NCBI GenBank assembly: GCA_017883185.1
Contig: JADGOB010000024.1
Span: 1 to 39,289 of the forward strand
Origin: Acidobacteriota bacterium
GTDB taxonomy: Bacteria > Acidobacteriota > Vicinamibacteria > Vicinamibacterales > Fen-181
Reading direction: 5' to 3'
DNA length: 39,289 nucleotides
Made by a program: the position numbers and the translations under genes. Position 1 is the stretch's first letter. Every line of letters starts with the position of its first letter. Below, one piece after another: positions 2,753 through 38,938 of the stretch. Under the pieces are notes generated by a model. It searched no databases. It had not been told where the DNA came from and saw only the letters and a list, made by a program, of their open reading frames with translations.

Positions 2753-5131
2753 TCAGAACCCCACGGTCAGCCCCGCGTAGACGTTCCTCCCGGCGGCCGG
2801 GATGAACAACGCCACGCCGCCGTCCACGTAGCCGAACGACGTGTAGCGACGGTCGAACAGGTTGTTGATGCGCAGGTCGAGCGCCGTTCGTCCGAAGCCA
2901 GTGCTGCGGCGGAGACGGTCGGGCAGCGCCAGCTTCGCCGCGACATCGACCGTCGTGTAGGACGGGTTCACGAGGTTCTGGTTCTGAGTGTTGTCGAGAA
3001 AGAATTCTCCGACGTGGCGCAGCGCGATCGACACGCGGCTGGCGCCAAAGTCGGCGCGGGCCGAGATCGAACCCATCACGTCCGGGAAGCCGGCGATGCG
3101 GTGGCCGTCGTAGATGATCACTCCCCCGAGGAAGTCGTGCTCGCGGTAGCGCGTGAACGTGTTGCGCGACACTGAGAGCGCGGCGTCCACGCCGAAACGC
3201 TTCGCGACCGTCGCGCTGCCGTCGACTTCCAGGCCCATCCGGCGCGACCTGGCGCCGTTGCCGTAGATCGGCACACCGTTGTCGTCGAGCGCGCCCGCGT
3301 AGACGATCTCGTTGAGGAACTGCATCCAGAACGCGTTACCGCGCACGTGCCAGCCCGGGCCCCGCCACGACGTGCCAGCCTCGACGTTCCAGACGTCCTC
3401 GGGGGCGAGCGACACGACCGTCGAGTAGTAATCCTGCGGGTCGTAGAGATTCTGGAAGAACGGCTCCCGCATGCCGCGCGCAACGCTCACATACGCCTCG
3501 CCGGCCGGGGCGAGTTTGAAGATTGCGCCCGCCCTCGGCAGGACGAACCCGTAGCTCTGCGTGAAGGCGACGTGCTTCAACTGATCGTCGGACAGCTCAT
3601 AGCTATGATGCGAGAACTGGAGGCCGCCCGTGAGCGTCAGGCGCGACGTGGCGGCGTAGCGCGCCGTCACGGCGCCCGCAGCCGTGTCCTTCGCCGCGCG
3701 GTAGTCGTAGTAGCGATGGTCCGGCGCGACGCCGACGGGATAGTACTGCGCCCAGGTCACCTCGCCCACGTGGTGCGCGCGGTGGATGCGCACTTCCCCG
3801 TTGACGTCGACCCCGAGGCGGCCGAACTGGTGGGAGAACGACGGCACCCATCCGGCGTCCCACTCGCCCACCGTGCGGCGCCGCACGAGGTCACTTTGCG
3901 TGATCGCTCCTCCGCCCGGCTGCTGCAGGTTCGGCAGCTCGTATTCGAACAGCGACTGACGCGCACGGAACTGGTCGTAGTAGCCGTTTCCCTGGAACGC
4001 GTAGAGGGTCTGACTGAACCGCGTGCGCTCGGAGAACGTCACGTCGTGCACGAACTGGTAGTGTGGCTGGAAGAAGTTGTCGATCTCGCCGGGATACGAC
4101 AGCGGGTTGCTGCGCCGGTCGCGATCAGGGTTACCGGTCAGACCGCCGTTGAGCACGCTCTGGTCCACGCCGTTGTAGGCGAGATGCGTCTGTTCGGGTC
4201 CGCCGAACAGGACCACGCGCATGCGGGACCGCGCCCCGTAGCGGGCGACCGAAAAGTAGTAGTTCCACATGTCCACCCACGACTGGTCGCGGTAGCCGTC
4301 CGTCGTGAGTTTCGAGTACCGCGCTGAAAATGCCCAGACCCCGTCCACGAGACCCGAGTCCCAGAGCACGGTGAGACGCTTCGTGTTGTACGACCCGGCG
4401 CCGAACTGGACGGAGAACGCGGGCTGGACCGACGGAGACGCGGTGGTGAAATCGATCGCGCCGCCCAGTCCCGAGAGACCCGACACCCCGCGCTGCACCT
4501 GCACGTCCCCCGCCGTCGACATGAAGTCGGCAAGATCGATGAAGAACAGCTCGCCCGACTCCGCATCGTTGAGCGGCGCGCCGTTGAGCATCACGCGCGT
4601 CCGCGCCTGGCCGAAGCCGCGGATCGAGAAGTATGAGTAGCCGATCCCGTTGCCGCTGTCGTTGGACGTGAAGACGCCCGGCACCACCTGCGACAGCAGC
4701 ACGGCCGGGTCCTGGCCCCAGTAGGTTTCGGCCACCCTCTCCTGCGGCACGTTCGTGAAGCTGGCGGCATCTGCCCCTTCACGGACGCGCGTCGCCGTCA
4801 CTTCCACGCGGTCGGTCACCGTCACGATGGGCGCAAGCCGCACGTCGATTGCCGACGACGCCTTCACCTCGACCGTCGTTCGCTGGACGTAATAGCCCGG
4901 ATGGGAGATGACGAACGTGGCCCGATCGACGGCCCCGACGTCGATCACGAACCGCCCGTCGGCATCGGCCTTCACGAACGCGTGCGTCTCGAGAATCTCG
5001 ATCCGCGCAGGAACAGGACTGGAGGTATCCGCGTCCACGACGCGGCCGGACACAGGATGAGATTGAGCAGCGGCCGGAACGGCCAGGAACTGGAGCGTGA
5101 TGAGCAGGATCGACAGGATGACGGTTCGCAT
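2753..5131 (-). CDS. TonB-dependent outer-membrane receptor under TPP riboswitch control (probable thiamine receptor)
   Basis: This is an outer-membrane ligand-gated channel powered by TonB. I place the start at 5131 because GGAGGG lies 5-6 nt before that ATG; the ATG at 5143 overlaps this ribosome site. The order is signal peptide (1-24, ending AAAQ), carboxypeptidase-regulatory-like beta domain (about 25-100), plug domain (about 120-230, with SIRGFGQARTRVMLNG) and a beta-barrel ending in the usual C-terminal Phe. The length, 792 aa, is normal. The leader carries a clear TPP riboswitch, so the substrate is probably thiamine, its phosphates or a precursor; TPP-controlled TonB receptors are known from Bacteroidetes. 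No inner-membrane thiamine transporter is adjacent. The substrate is inferred from regulation only. Confidence 0.9.
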   Translation of the reverse strand: MRTVILSILLITLQFLAVPAAAQSHPVSGRVVDADTSSPVPARIEILETHAFVKADADGRFVIDVGAVDRATFVISHPGYYVQRTTVEVKASSAIDVRLAPIVTVTDRVEVTATRVREGADAASFTNVPQERVAETYWGQDPAVLLSQVVPGVFTSNDSGNGIGYSYFSIRGFGQARTRVMLNGAPLNDAESGELFFIDLADFMSTAGDVQVQRGVSGLSGLGGAIDFTTASPSVQPAFSVQFGAGSYNTKRLTVLWDSGLVDGVWAFSARYSKLTTDGYRDQSWVDMWNYYFSVARYGARSRMRVVLFGGPEQTHLAYNGVDQSVLNGGLTGNPDRDRRSNPLSYPGEIDNFFQPHYQFVHDVTFSERTRFSQTLYAFQGNGYYDQFRARQSLFEYELPNLQQPGGGAITQSDLVRRRTVGEWDAGWVPSFSHQFGRLGVDVNGEVRIHRAHHVGEVTWAQYYPVGVAPDHRYYDYRAAKDTAAGAVTARYAATSRLTLTGGLQFSHHSYELSDDQLKHVAFTQSYGFVLPRAGAIFKLAPAGEAYVSVARGMREPFFQNLYDPQDYYSTVVSLAPEDVWNVEAGTSWRGPGWHVRGNAFWMQFLNEIVYAGALDDNGVPIYGNGARSRRMGLEVDGSATVAKRFGVDAALSVSRNTFTRYREHDFLGGVIIYDGHRIAGFPDVMGSISARADFGASRVSIALRHVGEFFLDNTQNQNLVNPSYTTVDVAAKLALPDRLRRSTGFGRTALDLRINNLFDRRYTSFGYVDGGVALFIPAAGRNVYAGLTVGF

Positions 5132-5199
5132 CGTTCCCTCCATCCGGGTCGGTGGGGACCCCGAATGGAAGGCGCGTCGTGCTACGCCCGCCGCTTCGG

Positions 5200-5277
5200 T
5201 TCCCTACGCCGGTGTTACCCGGATCAGGTTCAAAGGGTGTGATCTCAGCCCCGCCACCGGCGGGACACCCCTACGAA
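5200..5277 (-). promoter_or_regulatory. TPP riboswitch (THI element)
   Basis: Read on the minus strand this contains all conserved THI-box blocks: TAGGGGTG, then GGGGCTGAGA, then ACCCTTTGAACCTGATCCGG, then GTAACACCGGCGTAGGGAA. Together these form the pyrimidine-sensor and pyrophosphate-sensor arms of the TPP aptamer. It lies about 70 nt before the receptor start codon. The stretch between has no U-tract terminator but holds a small GGGTC/GACCC stem just before the ribosome site, so translational control is more likely than termination. Confidence 0.95.
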
Positions 5278-5290
5278 GGTGGCTTCCTGT

Positions 5291-33265: not shown

Positions 33266-34057
33266 TTAGTCCCGGGCCCGTATTCGACGAAGCGGCACGA
33301 CGGTCAGGTGGCCGGCCGCCTCGTGGTAGTGAACATCCGCCTCGACGTCGTACAGGGCGCGGACCGACTCGCGTGTCAGGACCTGGTCGGTCGGCCCGGA
33401 CGCGATCACCCGGCCCTCGCGCAGCAGCACCAGTTGCCGGCACAGCCCCGCGGCCAGGTTGAGATCGTGTGTCGCGATGGCCATGGTCACGCCGCGCTCG
33501 GCGTTCAGGCGTCGCAACAGCGACGCGATCTCGACCTGGTAGCCAGGGTCGAGCGCCGCGGTCGGCTCGTCGAGCAGCATGAGACCGGCCGACTGCGCCA
33601 GCGCGCTCGCGATGACCACCCGCTGCTTCTCGCCGCCGCTCAGCGTCGGAAAGAGCCGGTGTTCGAGCGCCAGCGTGCCGGTCGCCGCCAACGCCTCGCG
33701 CGCGATCGCCACGTCGTCCTGGCTCTCCAGCTCGAAGGCGCCGAGGTGAGGGTAGCGCCCCATCAGGACAACCTCGAGCACCGAGTACTCGAAGGACAGC
33801 CTGGTTTCCTGGGGAACAACCGCGATCTGTCGCGCGAGATCGCGGCGCGATATGCGCCAGAGGTCGCGGCCATCGATTGTCACGCGCCCGGAAGCCGCCG
33901 GCAGCATGCCGCCGAGTACGCGCAGCAGCGTCGTCTTCCCGGAGCCGTTCGGCCCGAGGATGCCGACCAGGCCCCCGCCCGGGACGTCCACAGAGACGCC
34001 GTGCAGGCCGGCCTGGCCCGGTCCGTAGACGAAACTGACGTCAGCGGCCTGCAGCAA
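33266..34057 (-). CDS. btuD: Vitamin B12 ABC transporter ATPase, BtuD-like
   Basis: A 263-aa ATPase of the FepC/BtuD type. Walker A GPNGSGKTT (35-43), the Q-loop in VPQETRL, signature LSGGEKQR, Walker B LMLLDEPTAALD and the switch His (IATHDLN) are all present. Its start overlaps the end of the btuB gene by 17 nt, so the two are translationally coupled. It energises the BtuC permease encoded next. Confidence 0.94.
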   Translation of the reverse strand: MLQAADVSFVYGPGQAGLHGVSVDVPGGGLVGILGPNGSGKTTLLRVLGGMLPAASGRVTIDGRDLWRISRRDLARQIAVVPQETRLSFEYSVLEVVLMGRYPHLGAFELESQDDVAIAREALAATGTLALEHRLFPTLSGGEKQRVVIASALAQSAGLMLLDEPTAALDPGYQVEIASLLRRLNAERGVTMAIATHDLNLAAGLCRQLVLLREGRVIASGPTDQVLTRESVRALYDVEADVHYHEAAGHLTVVPLRRIRARD

Positions 34058-36395
34058 TCCTGACCCCGATTGTGGCGTTGCGGCCGAGCGCCGGGAAGCC
34101 GAACGTCTCCTCGTAGCGTCGATCGAACACGTTGCCGATTCGCCCGATCACCTCGACAAAGGAGGCGATGCGCCACGACGCGCCGGCATCCACGACGGTG
34201 AAGCCTGGGTTGTAGAACAGCCCGCCGTAGGTGCCGTACGACGGTTCGACGTCGAGCGAACGCGCGCGGCCACCGACGCGGGCGAACGCGGTCAGGCCGC
34301 GACGGGTGAATGTCAGGTCGAGCGAGGCGGAATGCCGAGGCCTTCGCAGGAGCGGATCGCCAACCTGGAACGGGATCGGCGCACGTTCGCCCAGCCGATC
34401 GACCGCCAGGATTTCCGTGTCGAGGTAGGTGTAGGAGAGCCGGGCGCCCAGGCCCCAGGCGGTGCGAAGAGCGCCCGCCAGTTCGACGCCGATCGAGCTG
34501 GCGTTCGAGATGTTGTCGGTGCGGTAGCGGCTCGCGTCCGCCAGCGCCGGGCCGACGGCGACGATCAGATCGTCATACCGGTTGAAGAAGACGGTGGCGC
34601 TGACGACCAGGCGTTCGCTCGCGGCCGCCTGGTCAACGCCCGCCTCGACGCTTCGGCTGCGTTCGGGTTTCAACCCGGGGTTGTCGGTGAACGCGATTTC
34701 CAGGGCATCGGGCGCGCGGATCCCGGTGCCGGCCGCGGCATGGACGCGCGTCCAACCGAGCGTGCCGCCGCGCGAGCCGGCAAACAGGAATGCAGCAGAG
34801 ATCCTGGGGTTCACAAAGGTGCGCACGTCGGTGTCGAACGCCGGCCGCGGCGAGTACGGATCGAGGTTTCGGGAGAGACGATCGCGCTCGATACGCTCTG
34901 CGCGGACGCCCGCGGTCAGCGTCAGTGGCATGACCGGCTGATAGCGGGCCTCCGCGAACGCGCCGGCAACCCATCGCCTGATGGGCACCGGGCCGACAGT
35001 CTCCGCCGTGATGAACGTGCTCGTCGCACGCTCACGCTGAACCTCGGCCCCGGCCGAGACCGCAAGCGCCGTGGACAGGTCCACGTCGGTTTGCGATCGC
35101 ACCCCGGCCCGGCTCGACGCGGATGCCGACAGGCCGTAGGCGCTGGTGAAGTCGCTCGTCAGGTCCAGGTAGTTCGCGCTGATTGTCTGGCGCACGCGGC
35201 GGCCGCCTGGGGCGAACGGCTGCGTCCACCTGCCGCCGACCTGGCGCGTGCCCGTCACCCCGCGCGAGAGTCGATCGACCTGCGTATACGCGCCGATCGG
35301 ATTCGACCCGAACGGACCGGGGAAACCGCGATCGCTCGACGTGATGTGTCCCGTCGCGCGAAGATCCGCTCCGTTCGCGGCGCGCCAGCCCGCCGAGAAC
35401 GACGCGTGCGTCGAGAGGAAGTCGTCGTTCGACACGCGCTCGCCGGTGGCAGGGGCGACGCCGGTGAAACCGTTGCTGGCCACGCGCTCGCCAGACACGC
35501 CCCAGCTCCACGCGCCACGCGATCCCCACGTCCCGGCGGTCACGCGCGATGTCCCGAAACTGCCGCCCTCGATCGCCCCTTCCAGGCGGGGTGACCCGCC
35601 GTGCTTCGTGATGACCTGCACGACGGCGCCAATGGCCTCCGCCCCGAAGAGCGCGCTCTCGGGACCGCGCACCACCTCGATACGCTCCACGTCGCCCGCC
35701 GACAAGGCGGAGAAATCGTAGCCGCCGCCAAAGGCATTGGCCTTGATCCCGTCTACCAGGACCAGCGTGAAATCCGATTCGCCGCCGCGCGGGAACAGCG
35801 ACGTGACGCTGCCACGCCCGCCGTTGCGGGCGACGGTGAGACCGGGCACCGACCGCATGGCGTCCGCAACCGTCTCAACCTGCGCCGCGAGAAGATCGCG
35901 GGCCGAGAGAACCGTGATGGAATCTGCCGCGCGTGCGAGCGGAACTTCGACTTGCGCCGCCGAGACGACCACCGATTCCGTGACGGCGCTGACGTGGAGG
36001 CTGACGGGCACTCGCGCCTCCTGTCCCGGCGCCACCGCGACATCGATCGGATCGGCCCGAAACCCTTCTGCCATCACGCGAAGCTCGTAGCGGCCCGGCG
36101 CCACGGGCGAGAAGCGGAACTCGCCCTCCGTGTCGGCCTCGGTCGTGGCCACGACCGACAGCGCGCTGGCGAGCACGACCCGGGCACGCGGGACGCGCGC
36201 CCCATCGGGATCGGTGACCGTTCCCCGAACGCTCGCGGCGGGCGGGTCCGCGGCCACCTCGAGCGACCGGTGCGCACCCGCCGCGGGTGAGATGAGGGTC
36301 CCCGCCTCTCCGCCGGGCGCGGGAAGCAAGAGGAAGATCAGAAGAAAGAGAGAGAGGCCCCCCGTCCGGAGGGCGAGTCGCGGGATCTGCAGCAT
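34041..36395 (-). CDS. btuB: TonB-dependent vitamin B12 receptor, BtuB-like
   Basis: The outer-membrane cobalamin receptor. I use ATG 36395 (AAGGA 6 nt upstream); the frame runs on to a GTG at 36458 inside the riboswitch leader. The 784-aa product has a signal anchor region (about 11-30), a carboxypeptidase-regulatory-like domain (about 52-130), a plug (about 150-260; LVLVDGIKANAFGGGYDFSA then IEVVRGPESALFGAEAIGA) and a barrel. It is the first gene of the B12 operon and the cobalamin riboswitch precedes it, which fixes the likely substrate. Confidence 0.93.
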   Translation of the reverse strand: MLQIPRLALRTGGLSLFLLIFLLLPAPGGEAGTLISPAAGAHRSLEVAADPPAASVRGTVTDPDGARVPRARVVLASALSVVATTEADTEGEFRFSPVAPGRYELRVMAEGFRADPIDVAVAPGQEARVPVSLHVSAVTESVVVSAAQVEVPLARAADSITVLSARDLLAAQVETVADAMRSVPGLTVARNGGRGSVTSLFPRGGESDFTLVLVDGIKANAFGGGYDFSALSAGDVERIEVVRGPESALFGAEAIGAVVQVITKHGGSPRLEGAIEGGSFGTSRVTAGTWGSRGAWSWGVSGERVASNGFTGVAPATGERVSNDDFLSTHASFSAGWRAANGADLRATGHITSSDRGFPGPFGSNPIGAYTQVDRLSRGVTGTRQVGGRWTQPFAPGGRRVRQTISANYLDLTSDFTSAYGLSASASSRAGVRSQTDVDLSTALAVSAGAEVQRERATSTFITAETVGPVPIRRWVAGAFAEARYQPVMPLTLTAGVRAERIERDRLSRNLDPYSPRPAFDTDVRTFVNPRISAAFLFAGSRGGTLGWTRVHAAAGTGIRAPDALEIAFTDNPGLKPERSRSVEAGVDQAAASERLVVSATVFFNRYDDLIVAVGPALADASRYRTDNISNASSIGVELAGALRTAWGLGARLSYTYLDTEILAVDRLGERAPIPFQVGDPLLRRPRHSASLDLTFTRRGLTAFARVGGRARSLDVEPSYGTYGGLFYNPGFTVVDAGASWRIASFVEVIGRIGNVFDRRYEETFGFPALGRNATIGVRIAAGR

Positions 36396-36479
36396 GGACT
36401 GTCCTTCGGCGTCTGTCGCGCCGAACTCCCGGCGGGATCCGTAGGAACGGACCTGCACGGGGAGTAGAGGGACGTGCCG

Positions 36480-36662
36480 GGCGGCCAGGTTTCCTGACTC
36501 GCGGATCCGCGCGAACGCTGCCGCCTTCCCATGCCCTCAGGCACAGTGACGGGATCTCTCTGGAGATCCTCTGCGGCGTTCGCTCCCCGCTTACAGTGGC
36601 GTGACCGTGTGGGCTTCGAACCCACTTCGCTTGGACGCCGGCGAACCGTCGGTTATCGGTGG
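36480..36662 (-). promoter_or_regulatory. Cobalamin (B12) riboswitch
   Basis: On the minus strand the conserved blocks are present in order: GAAGTGGGTTCGAAGCCCAC, CGGTCACGCCACTGT, AAGCGGGG, then GGGAAGGCGG and the B12 box GAGTCAGGAAACCTGGCCG at the 3' end. It leads the btuB-btuD-btuC-btuF operon and ends about 85 nt before the btuB ATG. A TATACT on the minus strand (36665-36670), inside the end of the peroxiredoxin gene, is a candidate -10 for its transcript. Confidence 0.94.
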
Positions 36663-37178
36663 TCAGTATAGAACAGAACGCGGGTCAGCGGGGCACCCTC
36701 CATAAACCTTTGCGATCTCCTGCACGATCTCGTCGTGGCTGGGGAACTCGAACTGCGACGAGGCGACGAAGCTGTAGCGGATCACGCCCTGCCGGTCGAT
36801 GAGGAAGAGTGCCGGCCGCGCGATGTTCCACGCGTCGAACCCGACCGGGTGCCACACACCGTACGCCTTCACCGTGTCCCGGGAATCGTCCACCAGGATG
36901 TTGAACGGCAGGCCGGAATCCTCGATGTAGCGTCGCACCTTCTCGGATCGTTGCGCCACGACGGCGACGACCTGCGCGCCGTACGACAGGTACTGCGCGG
37001 AGTGGTGTGCCAGTTCACCGAACTGGCGGCGACAGTTCGGTCACCAGGTGCCCCGGTGGAAGGCGAGCAGCACCGGTCCCAGCATGAAGTAGTCGGCGAG
37101 CGACTTCATCTCGCCGCGCTGGTTCGGCAGCGTGAAGAGCGGGGCCGGTGTGCCTGGCAAGAGCGTCGGGTGGCGCAT
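36663..37178 (-). CDS. Selenocysteine-containing peroxiredoxin-like protein (in-frame TGA read as Sec46)
   Basis: From ATG 37178 (GAGG 8 nt upstream) the frame codes for an AhpC/TSA-type peroxiredoxin: LLPGTPAPLFTLPNQRGEM, FMLGPVLLAFHRGTW, then TGA at 37041-37043, then PNCRRQFGEL. After it the protein continues in the same frame without further stops through GVWHPVGFDAWNIARP and LFLIDRQGVIRYSF to 36663. Homologues of this family have W-C-P-x-C here, so the TGA stands exactly at the first active-site Cys: a U-P-N-C centre (Sec46, Cys49). A hairpin fitting a bacterial SECIS starts 14 nt after the TGA. The 171-aa length is normal for the family. It is third in a moaB-moeA-peroxiredoxin operon, 36 nt after moeA. 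The alternative is a recent nonsense mutation; the exact position and hairpin argue against that. SelA, SelB, SelC and SelD are not in this window. Confidence 0.85.
37009..37027 (-). promoter_or_regulatory. Candidate bacterial SECIS element
   Basis: GCCAGTTC-GGT-GAACTGGC is a perfect 8-bp stem with a GGU loop in the mRNA. The loop begins 22 nt after the UGA and has G at its first two positions, as the general bacterial SECIS model expects. A second, mutually exclusive hairpin (CCGAACTG/CAGTTCGG, 37018-37040) starts immediately after the UGA. Confidence 0.7.
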
Positions 37179-37214
37179 GAACGTGACCTCGGCGCGGACC
37201 GCAGGGCGCCCGCG

Positions 37215-38438
37215 TCAGAAGAAGATGACTTCCACCATCTGTCCCTTTTCCACGATGTCGGTCTGCGCGGGGATCTCGATGTAGCCGTCGGCCTGCGACA
37301 TGCTCGTGATGTCGCCCGAGGCCTTGAACGCCGGCATCGCGGTCCCGTCCTCGACGCGCACCGTGTAGAACTGGTGGCGGCCGGTGGTGGATACGACCCG
37401 CTGGCCGAGCGGGAGCACGATCGAGCGCGGCGCGACCTCGGGCAGTCGCGCAAGCCGCCGGAGCAGGGGCACGACGAGCATGTAGCCGTTCGACAGGCAT
37501 GACGTGGGGTAGCCCGGCATCCCGAGCACCGGTTTGCCGTCGACCAGCCCGAACAGCGTCGGCTTGCCCGGCTTCACCGCGATGCCGTGGAAGACCACCT
37601 CGCCGCGGGCCGCGATCGCATCCAGGATCAAGTCCCGTTCTCCGACGGAACTTCCGCCGGAGAAGATCACGAGGTCTTCGGCAAGGGCGACGTCCAGCGC
37701 GCGGTTGAGATCGGCGAGCGTGTCGGCCGATGTCGGGTGCGGCACAGGCACGGCGCCGTGCTCGGCGATGATCGCGCCGAGCGTGAACCGGTTGATGTCG
37801 TAGATCTGGCCGGGCCCGAGCGGCTGCCCGGGCGAGACAATCTCGTTGCCCGTGGAGACGATCGCGACCCGGGGCCGGGCGAACACCTTCACCCGATCGA
37901 ACCCCAGCGCCGCAATGGCGCCGACGCGGCTCGGCGTCAGGTACACGCCCGCCGAGAACAGCGCCTGGCCGGTGCGAATGTCGGCGCCCTGCCGGCCCAC
38001 GTTCTGTCCGGGATAGACCGGGCTGAAGACGCGCACCTGGCCGTCGTCGTCCTTCTCGGTCTTCTCCACCATCACGACAGCGTCGGCCCCGGCCGGCATC
38101 GGCGCACCGGTCGCGATTTCCGCGCACCCGCCGCGCGCCACCCCAAGGGTCGGCATCTGCCCGGTGTAGACCTTCTCCACCACCCGGAGCACCTTCGGAT
38201 CGAACGGCCCGGCGCCGAAGGTGTCCTCGGCGATGACCGCGTAGCCATCCATCGCTGCGCGCGAGAAGGGCGGCACATCCTGATCGGCAACGATGCGGTG
38301 CGCGAGAACCCGCTGGTGCGCCGCCTCGAGCGGCACCGTCTCGACGCGCGCGATCGGCTGCGCGGCGTCGAGCAGCAAGGCCCGCGCCTCCTCGAGCGGG
38401 ATCGTCCCGCGAATCGGTCGCATCGATGCCTCGCTCAT
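37215..38438 (-). CDS. moeA: Molybdopterin molybdenumtransferase MoeA
   Basis: MoeA inserts molybdate into adenylylated molybdopterin to make the molybdenum cofactor. The 407-aa protein shows the MoeA signatures DVPPFSRAAMDGYAV near residues 50-65, the MPAGADAVVMVE hinge, and the MogA-like domain with STGNEIV and SGGSSVGERD, then KPGKPT and GMPGYPTS. ATG 38438 overlaps the moaB stop by 4 nt (ATGA). The frame extends upstream inside moaB but that is not MoeA-like. Confidence 0.95.
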   Translation of the reverse strand: MSEASMRPIRGTIPLEEARALLLDAAQPIARVETVPLEAAHQRVLAHRIVADQDVPPFSRAAMDGYAVIAEDTFGAGPFDPKVLRVVEKVYTGQMPTLGVARGGCAEIATGAPMPAGADAVVMVEKTEKDDDGQVRVFSPVYPGQNVGRQGADIRTGQALFSAGVYLTPSRVGAIAALGFDRVKVFARPRVAIVSTGNEIVSPGQPLGPGQIYDINRFTLGAIIAEHGAVPVPHPTSADTLADLNRALDVALAEDLVIFSGGSSVGERDLILDAIAARGEVVFHGIAVKPGKPTLFGLVDGKPVLGMPGYPTSCLSNGYMLVVPLLRRLARLPEVAPRSIVLPLGQRVVSTTGRHQFYTVRVEDGTAMPAFKASGDITSMSQADGYIEIPAQTDIVEKGQMVEVIFF

Positions 38439-38938
38439 CGGGACGCTTCCCTCACCAGGTGGCCCAGTTCCGGCAGCACGAGCTTCGTCATCGCCAGGCG
38501 GACGGCGTTCTCGGAACCCGGCAGCGAGATGATCACTTTCTTCTGCACCACGCCGGCGCAGGCGCGGCTGAGCATCGCGGCCGAGCCGATCTCCTGGAAG
38601 CTGAGCATCCGGAACAGCTCGCCGAAGCCGTCGAGCCGCTTCTCGAGCAGCGCGTCGATCGTCTCGAACGTCGTGTCGCGGGACGTGATGCCGGTCCCGC
38701 CCGTGGTGATGACCACCTGCACGTTCGGGCTGGCCAGCTGATCGCCAATCGCCGCGCGCACCTGGTCGGGCTCGTCCCGCACGATCTTGCGCCCGGCCAC
38801 CTGGTGGCCCCCTGCCCACAGCAGGTCGAAGATGGCGCGCCCGCTGGCGTCTGTGGCCTCGGTGCGGGTGTCGCTGATCGTCAGGATGTAGCAGTTGGCC
38901 ACGGCGGGCGATTGCGCCTTGTGTTCCAAGTGTCCCAT
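38435..38938 (-). CDS. moaB: Molybdenum cofactor biosynthesis protein MoaB/MogA-like
   Basis: This protein adenylylates molybdopterin before MoeA adds the metal. The MoCF-binding fold shows LTISDTRTEATDASG, VVITTGGTGITSRDTT (about 75-90) and SLPGSENAVRLAM near residue 140. The length, 167 aa, is usual for MoaB. It is first in the moaB-moeA-peroxiredoxin operon. No ribosome site is seen before ATG 38938, but TATGAT lies 6 nt upstream, suggesting a leaderless transcript. Confidence 0.93.
   Translation of the reverse strand: MGHLEHKAQSPAVANCYILTISDTRTEATDASGRAIFDLLWAGGHQVAGRKIVRDEPDQVRAAIGDQLASPNVQVVITTGGTGITSRDTTFETIDALLEKRLDGFGELFRMLSFQEIGSAAMLSRACAGVVQKKVIISLPGSENAVRLAMTKLVLPELGHLVREASR

Follow-up and report, generated by a model that had tools for sequence, protein, structure and literature searches.

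A conserved in-frame TGA in an AhpC/TSA redoxin gene points to an apparently selenocysteine-only, moeA-linked branch of a known selenoprotein kind in Acidobacteriota

The window, that is, the whole stretch of 39,289 nucleotides that was analysed, harbors close to its end a redoxin gene of the AhpC/TSA type, which is preceded on the same strand by two genes related to the molybdenum cofactor (Moco) (Table 1). When the minus strand was translated from 37178 to 36663 with TGA taken as selenocysteine (Sec), it was observed that a product of 171 residues contained a single internal TGA and ended at a terminal TGA (36663-36665). This product reads MRHPTLL...FHRGTW-U-PNC-RRQF..., with Sec46 placed within RGTW-U46-PN-C49, and its ATG start follows a ribosome-binding region (ccGAGGTcacgttcATG). 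The Pfam AhpC-TSA model (PF00578) matched residues 8-135 with 103 bits (cut-off 26), which shows homology on both sides of the TGA. The initial annotation, which had described an AhpC/TSA frame split by one TGA at this codon, with flanking homology and a normal start and ribosome site, was exact in these respects. The tail past approximately residue 160 was unconserved, the protein of a sister genome ending at 162, and neither a signal peptide nor an anchor was apparent at the N-terminus; the Sec redoxin is probably cytosolic.

Table 1. Features of the Sec redoxin locus in the window.
Feature	Positions	Strand	Basis
Sec redoxin gene, AhpC/TSA (Prx-fold), 171 aa with Sec46-Pro-Asn-Cys49	36663..37178	-	Frame translation, Pfam, orthologues
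Candidate bSECIS hairpin GCCAGUUC-GGU-GAACUGGC	37009..37027	-	Fit to published model, synonymous constraint
In-frame TGA, codon 46, almost certainly read as selenocysteine	37041..37043	-	TGA in every clade member found
Ribosome-binding region, GAGGT 7 nt before ATG	37181..37192	-	Sequence
moeA (molybdopterin molybdotransferase), directly upstream, 36-nt gap	37215..38438	-	Pfam MoeA_N, MoCF_biosynth, MoeA_C
moaB/mogA-like molybdopterin-binding protein, overlaps moeA	38435..38938	-	Pfam MoCF_biosynth, 107 bits

The order of these genes was found to be widely kept. In 18 of the 19 class members, moeA was placed directly upstream of the Sec redoxin gene on the same strand, with gaps ranging from -1 to about 114 nt, and in seven of the class members the moeA stop and the redoxin start overlapped as TGATG. 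This arrangement spans several families of the class, and moaB/mogA-like matches adjoined moeA in nearly all loci of the relatives. On the other hand, this link is lost at locus L034, and moeA was not found beside the Sec redoxin gene in the Rokuibacteriota locus described below or in the loci of other classes. On the other side of the gene, a cobalamin riboswitch (36466-36665, minus strand), whose first bases are the Sec redoxin stop codon, precedes a TonB-dependent receptor (34041-36458, minus strand). Elsewhere in the window, a TPP riboswitch (5184-5282, minus strand) was observed directly upstream of a TonB-dependent-receptor-like ORF (2753-5143, minus strand), which is probably involved with thiamine uptake.

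The in-frame TGA was conserved wherever the gene was found. Among 193 genomes of the class, TGA occupied the same codon in 20/20 orthologues, all of which kept the frame without other stops; one of these copies was split over two contigs and read URNC (the active site of locus L109, genome G131, is URNC, not UPNC). In a set of 100 genomes, comprising the source genome and 99 relatives, 18 orthologues with 54-96% identity and the window gene each presented one TGA at RGTW-U-PNC and were otherwise open, the second TGA of one sister orthologue being its natural stop at codon 163. A pattern scan of 84,980 GTDB species, using FHRGTWxPN (residue left free) or AWNIARPA (residue avoided), revealed 15 confirmed relatives, one of them in a Rokuibacteriota genome (43% identity), and TGA was present in 15/15. 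When 396 genomes across the phylum were searched, with clade membership defined as F.RGTW-U-P.C ... IA[RH]PA, 10/10 further clade loci from other Acidobacteriota classes also carried TGA. In a maximum-likelihood tree, the 29 rows of this RGTWU clade formed one supported group (96/92) with no Cys row inside; rows from the phylum search that read FYRG-x-W-U-P-x-C fell outside it. A Cys version of the clade was found neither in the 193 class genomes nor in the 396 phylum genomes nor by the GTDB pattern scan; more distant redoxins with Cys do exist. The expectation that the TGA column would be Cys in all homologues did not hold, the column being TGA throughout the clade, and the random stops and decay that the initial annotation had named as contrary evidence were not seen in the 20 orthologues. 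By the Nei-Gojobori method, dN was lower than dS both before and after the TGA in 9/9 pairs, with a ratio of 0.14-0.31 after it; both sides of the TGA are under purifying selection.

The source genome is a fragmented draft of 395 contigs in which tRNA-Sec (62 bits, anticodon TCA), selA (536 bits) and selB (362 bits) were identified. Of the selA, selB, selC and selD genes by which the initial annotation had proposed to judge the matter, only selD was not found in this assembly; candidates in the genome were weak matches whose sequences resembled ThiL and HypE, not SelD, and were rejected. In the same genus, selD was found above cut-off in 4/4 sister genomes, each time with one TGA. The DNA downstream of selD in one sister (G001) aligned at 96-98% to a contig of the source genome (C6), the second base of which corresponds to the point about 630 bases past the selD end. 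The likeliest reason why selD is absent is therefore a contig end, since contig C6 starts beyond the place that selD occupies in the sister. Over the 100 genomes, selA was present in 18/19 carriers of the Sec redoxin and in 67/81 non-carriers, a co-occurrence that fits but does not discriminate. It was also observed that in most genomes of the order selD itself contains one in-frame TGA (loci L059-L067), whereas a few relatives have none.

A bacterial SECIS (bSECIS) element has been modelled as a stem-loop with G within the initial two positions of the loop, located 16-37 nt after the UGA and with a minimum free energy of -7.5 or below (PMC13188914). The hairpin found in the window gene, which has 8 bp, a 3-nt loop with G as its first base and an energy of -11.0 kcal/mol and lies 21 nt downstream of the UGA, falls within these constraints, and a qualifying hairpin was present in 20/20 sequences examined. 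The summed energy of -253 was below that of 100/100 codon-usage-weighted synonymous shuffles (-203, sd 17), in rows that are related to one another, although the energy of most single sequences was unexceptional against the shuffles. Moreover, GC-rich synonymous shuffles often yielded similar hairpins, and the fit to the model says little by itself. Synonymous codon conservation reached its gene-wide maximum at codons +5 to +16 after the UGA, at the hairpin, and the rare Gly codon GGT (12/222 in the reference set) was placed at the hairpin loop in 11/18; a conserved protein and GC-rich codons confound this hairpin signal. Covariation in the hairpin was not above shuffles (111/500). RNAalifold proposed a different 5-bp hairpin, without covariation, and in the minimum-energy fold of the single sequence CCGAACUG was paired with CAGUUCGG. 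Since these folds compete with it, the SECIS register can be regarded only as a candidate, and the hairpin downstream of the UGA is compatible with the bSECIS model without being proven.

In the AlphaFold model (pLDDT 90, pTM 0.87), Sec46 lies immediately before helix 47-65, and a structure search placed PrxQ/Bcp and AhpE as the nearest solved folds, followed by ResA. The active site was aligned with those of the BCP-type and TlpA-type proteins of the source genome itself. In this alignment, Sec46 corresponded to the Thr/Ser of the peroxiredoxin (Prx) motif and to the first Cys of the TlpA CxxC, Cys49 to the Prx peroxidatic Cys and to the second Cys of CxxC, and Pro122 (33/35) to the Prx catalytic Arg and to the TlpA loop proline. 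Cys49 was the only conserved Cys, and the classical signature PxxxT/SxxC(U) with a conserved Arg was absent. Judged from these correspondences, the chemistry of the Sec redoxin should be thioredoxin-like despite its Prx-like fold.

The Sec redoxin was also compared with described families. PrxQ/Bcp and AhpE were its best neighbours in the PDB by fold and by sequence, but the Prx Thr/Ser is replaced by Sec and the Arg by Pro. ResA, TlpA and DsbE share the CxxC arrangement (UxxC in the Sec redoxin) and a Pro at the cis-Pro position; in contrast to them, no signal peptide or anchor was apparent, and the NCBIfam models for ResA (46.6 bits, cut-off 170) and DsbE (35.5 bits, cut-off 123) scored low. 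The model for SelL-related redox proteins (NF040769), which are related Prx-like redoxins, matched residues 12-108 with 51.8 bits, below its cut-off of 120, and no NCBIfam model was above cut-off. Selenoproteins combining UxxC with an AhpC-TSA domain are already known as "Prx-like thiol:disulfide oxidoreductase" (PMC2398784, Table 2), with WP_010940744.1 as a published representative. These proteins (PF00578, UxxC/UxxU; 'Prx-like 1' of the Global Ocean Sampling) share with the Sec redoxin the AhpC-TSA domain, the UxxC motif (here UPNC) and Sec in the first position. When domain, motif and description were compared, the RGTWU clade differed in its RGTW-U-P-x-C and NIA(R/H)PA motifs, in the lack of any Cys member found and in its adjacency to moaB-moeA in Vicinamibacterales. 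The initial description of an undescribed selenoprotein thus stands for the clade, whose motif strings did not occur in the literature searched, and not for its kind. Since the kind is known, the RGTWU clade is regarded as a new branch of it, linked to moeA and apparently Sec-only.

Other candidates were noticed in the same material. Two more AhpC/TSA genes of the source genome (L002 and L003, on contigs C29 and C139) present TGA at the Prx peroxidatic position, in the motifs FVUATEF and TGGUTAEC, and are likely Sec peroxiredoxins. In many genomes of the order (e.g., L038, L039 and L042), long redoxins of some 370 aa bearing SADWU-P-x-C also contain a TGA, and they represent a widespread further selenoprotein.

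It remains to weigh what else the TGA could mean. One nonsense change, or a misread TGC/TGT in a draft of so many contigs, would be enough to produce a lone in-frame stop; however, some 30 independent genomes belonging to many families share this TGA, and they show neither a further stop nor a frameshift. A pseudogene or sequencing or assembly error, excluded by the conserved TGA together with dN below dS on both sides, can be given virtually no credence. The open frame, and nothing further, would also suit a TGA read as another amino acid, such as Trp, through a genome-wide code change or leaky read-through, a reading that we consider highly improbable. In fact, the adjacent moeA terminates with TGA at most loci, and in seven of them this stop overlaps the next start; the Sec redoxin gene itself ends in TGA, internal TGA was restricted to selected redox genes at Cys-type sites, and a dedicated tRNA-Sec is present. 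Code reassignment was rejected, as TGA serves as a stop next door. The initial proposal of a selenoprotein is strongly supported by the conserved TGA, tRNA-Sec, selA and selB, selection, the SECIS-compatible hairpin and the sister genomes, and, from the sequences compared, the in-frame TGA is almost certainly read as Sec.

The function admits more than one reading. The initial annotation had proposed a Sec peroxidase with higher peroxide reactivity than its Cys relatives, that is, a true peroxiredoxin in which Sec attacks H2O2 or organic peroxides. Selenols react fast with peroxide, the Pfam AhpC-TSA match is above cut-off, and PrxQ/Bcp/AhpE ranked above ResA among solved folds, but the anatomy of the active site speaks against this proposal: Sec46 holds the Thr/Ser position, Cys49 the peroxidatic one, Pro122 replaces the catalytic Arg, and the PxxxT/SxxC...R site is lost. 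A Sec peroxidase is thus improbable. As to the neighbourhood, the moeA adjacency may reflect a shared promoter only, the redoxin being a general thiol reductant without a role in Moco metabolism, a reading compatible with what is proposed here for Sec and the active site. It is favoured by the lack of an adjacent moeA at L034, in the Rokuibacteriota copy and in those members of the clade that belong to other classes, whereas the order kept in nearly all class members over several families, with the stop/start overlaps, goes against it; its chances are about even.

The reading that we prefer, and hold to be quite probable as a whole, is that of a selenoprotein gene encoding a Prx-fold, TlpA-type redoxin whose role would be that of a thiol:disulfide oxidoreductase or reductase and not that of a classical peroxiredoxin, with a possible link to Moco. 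The UGA at codon 46 would be decoded by tRNA-Sec and SelB, the machinery for which is encoded in the genome, with the aid of a SECIS hairpin just downstream. The predicted site comprises the Sec46 selenolate and Cys49 (UxxC) at a helix N-terminus, with Pro122 at the cis-Pro position. Most likely, Sec46 would attack a disulfide, sulfenate or peroxide, Cys49 would resolve the intermediate as a selenenylsulfide, and a cellular thiol reductant would then reduce it. The adjacency to moeA suggests co-expression with molybdenum-cofactor synthesis, and the protein perhaps has a role in molybdenum-cofactor metabolism. In Vicinamibacterales, the Sec redoxin and moaB-moeA are probably expressed jointly, and for this reason the main client of the redoxin may belong to Moco insertion or to the protection of Mo-enzymes; for example, the redoxin could keep the dithiolene, or the thiols of MoeA or a client, reduced during Mo insertion. 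The stronger proposal, that the Sec-only UxxC clade serves Moco metabolism in Vicinamibacterales through translational coupling to MoeA, in Moco assembly or protection, appears doubtful. No paper linking such a selenoprotein to moeA or Moco was found in the literature search.

Misannotation of this gene and its relatives is likely, given that they are covered by no NCBIfam model and that a standard gene caller would end the frame at the TGA. For most selenoproteins a Cys twin exists, and a clade for which no such twin was found would be well suited to the question of why Sec is retained. Finally, the steady adjacency to moeA offers a concrete connection, open to testing, between the use of selenium and that of molybdenum in a major soil phylum.
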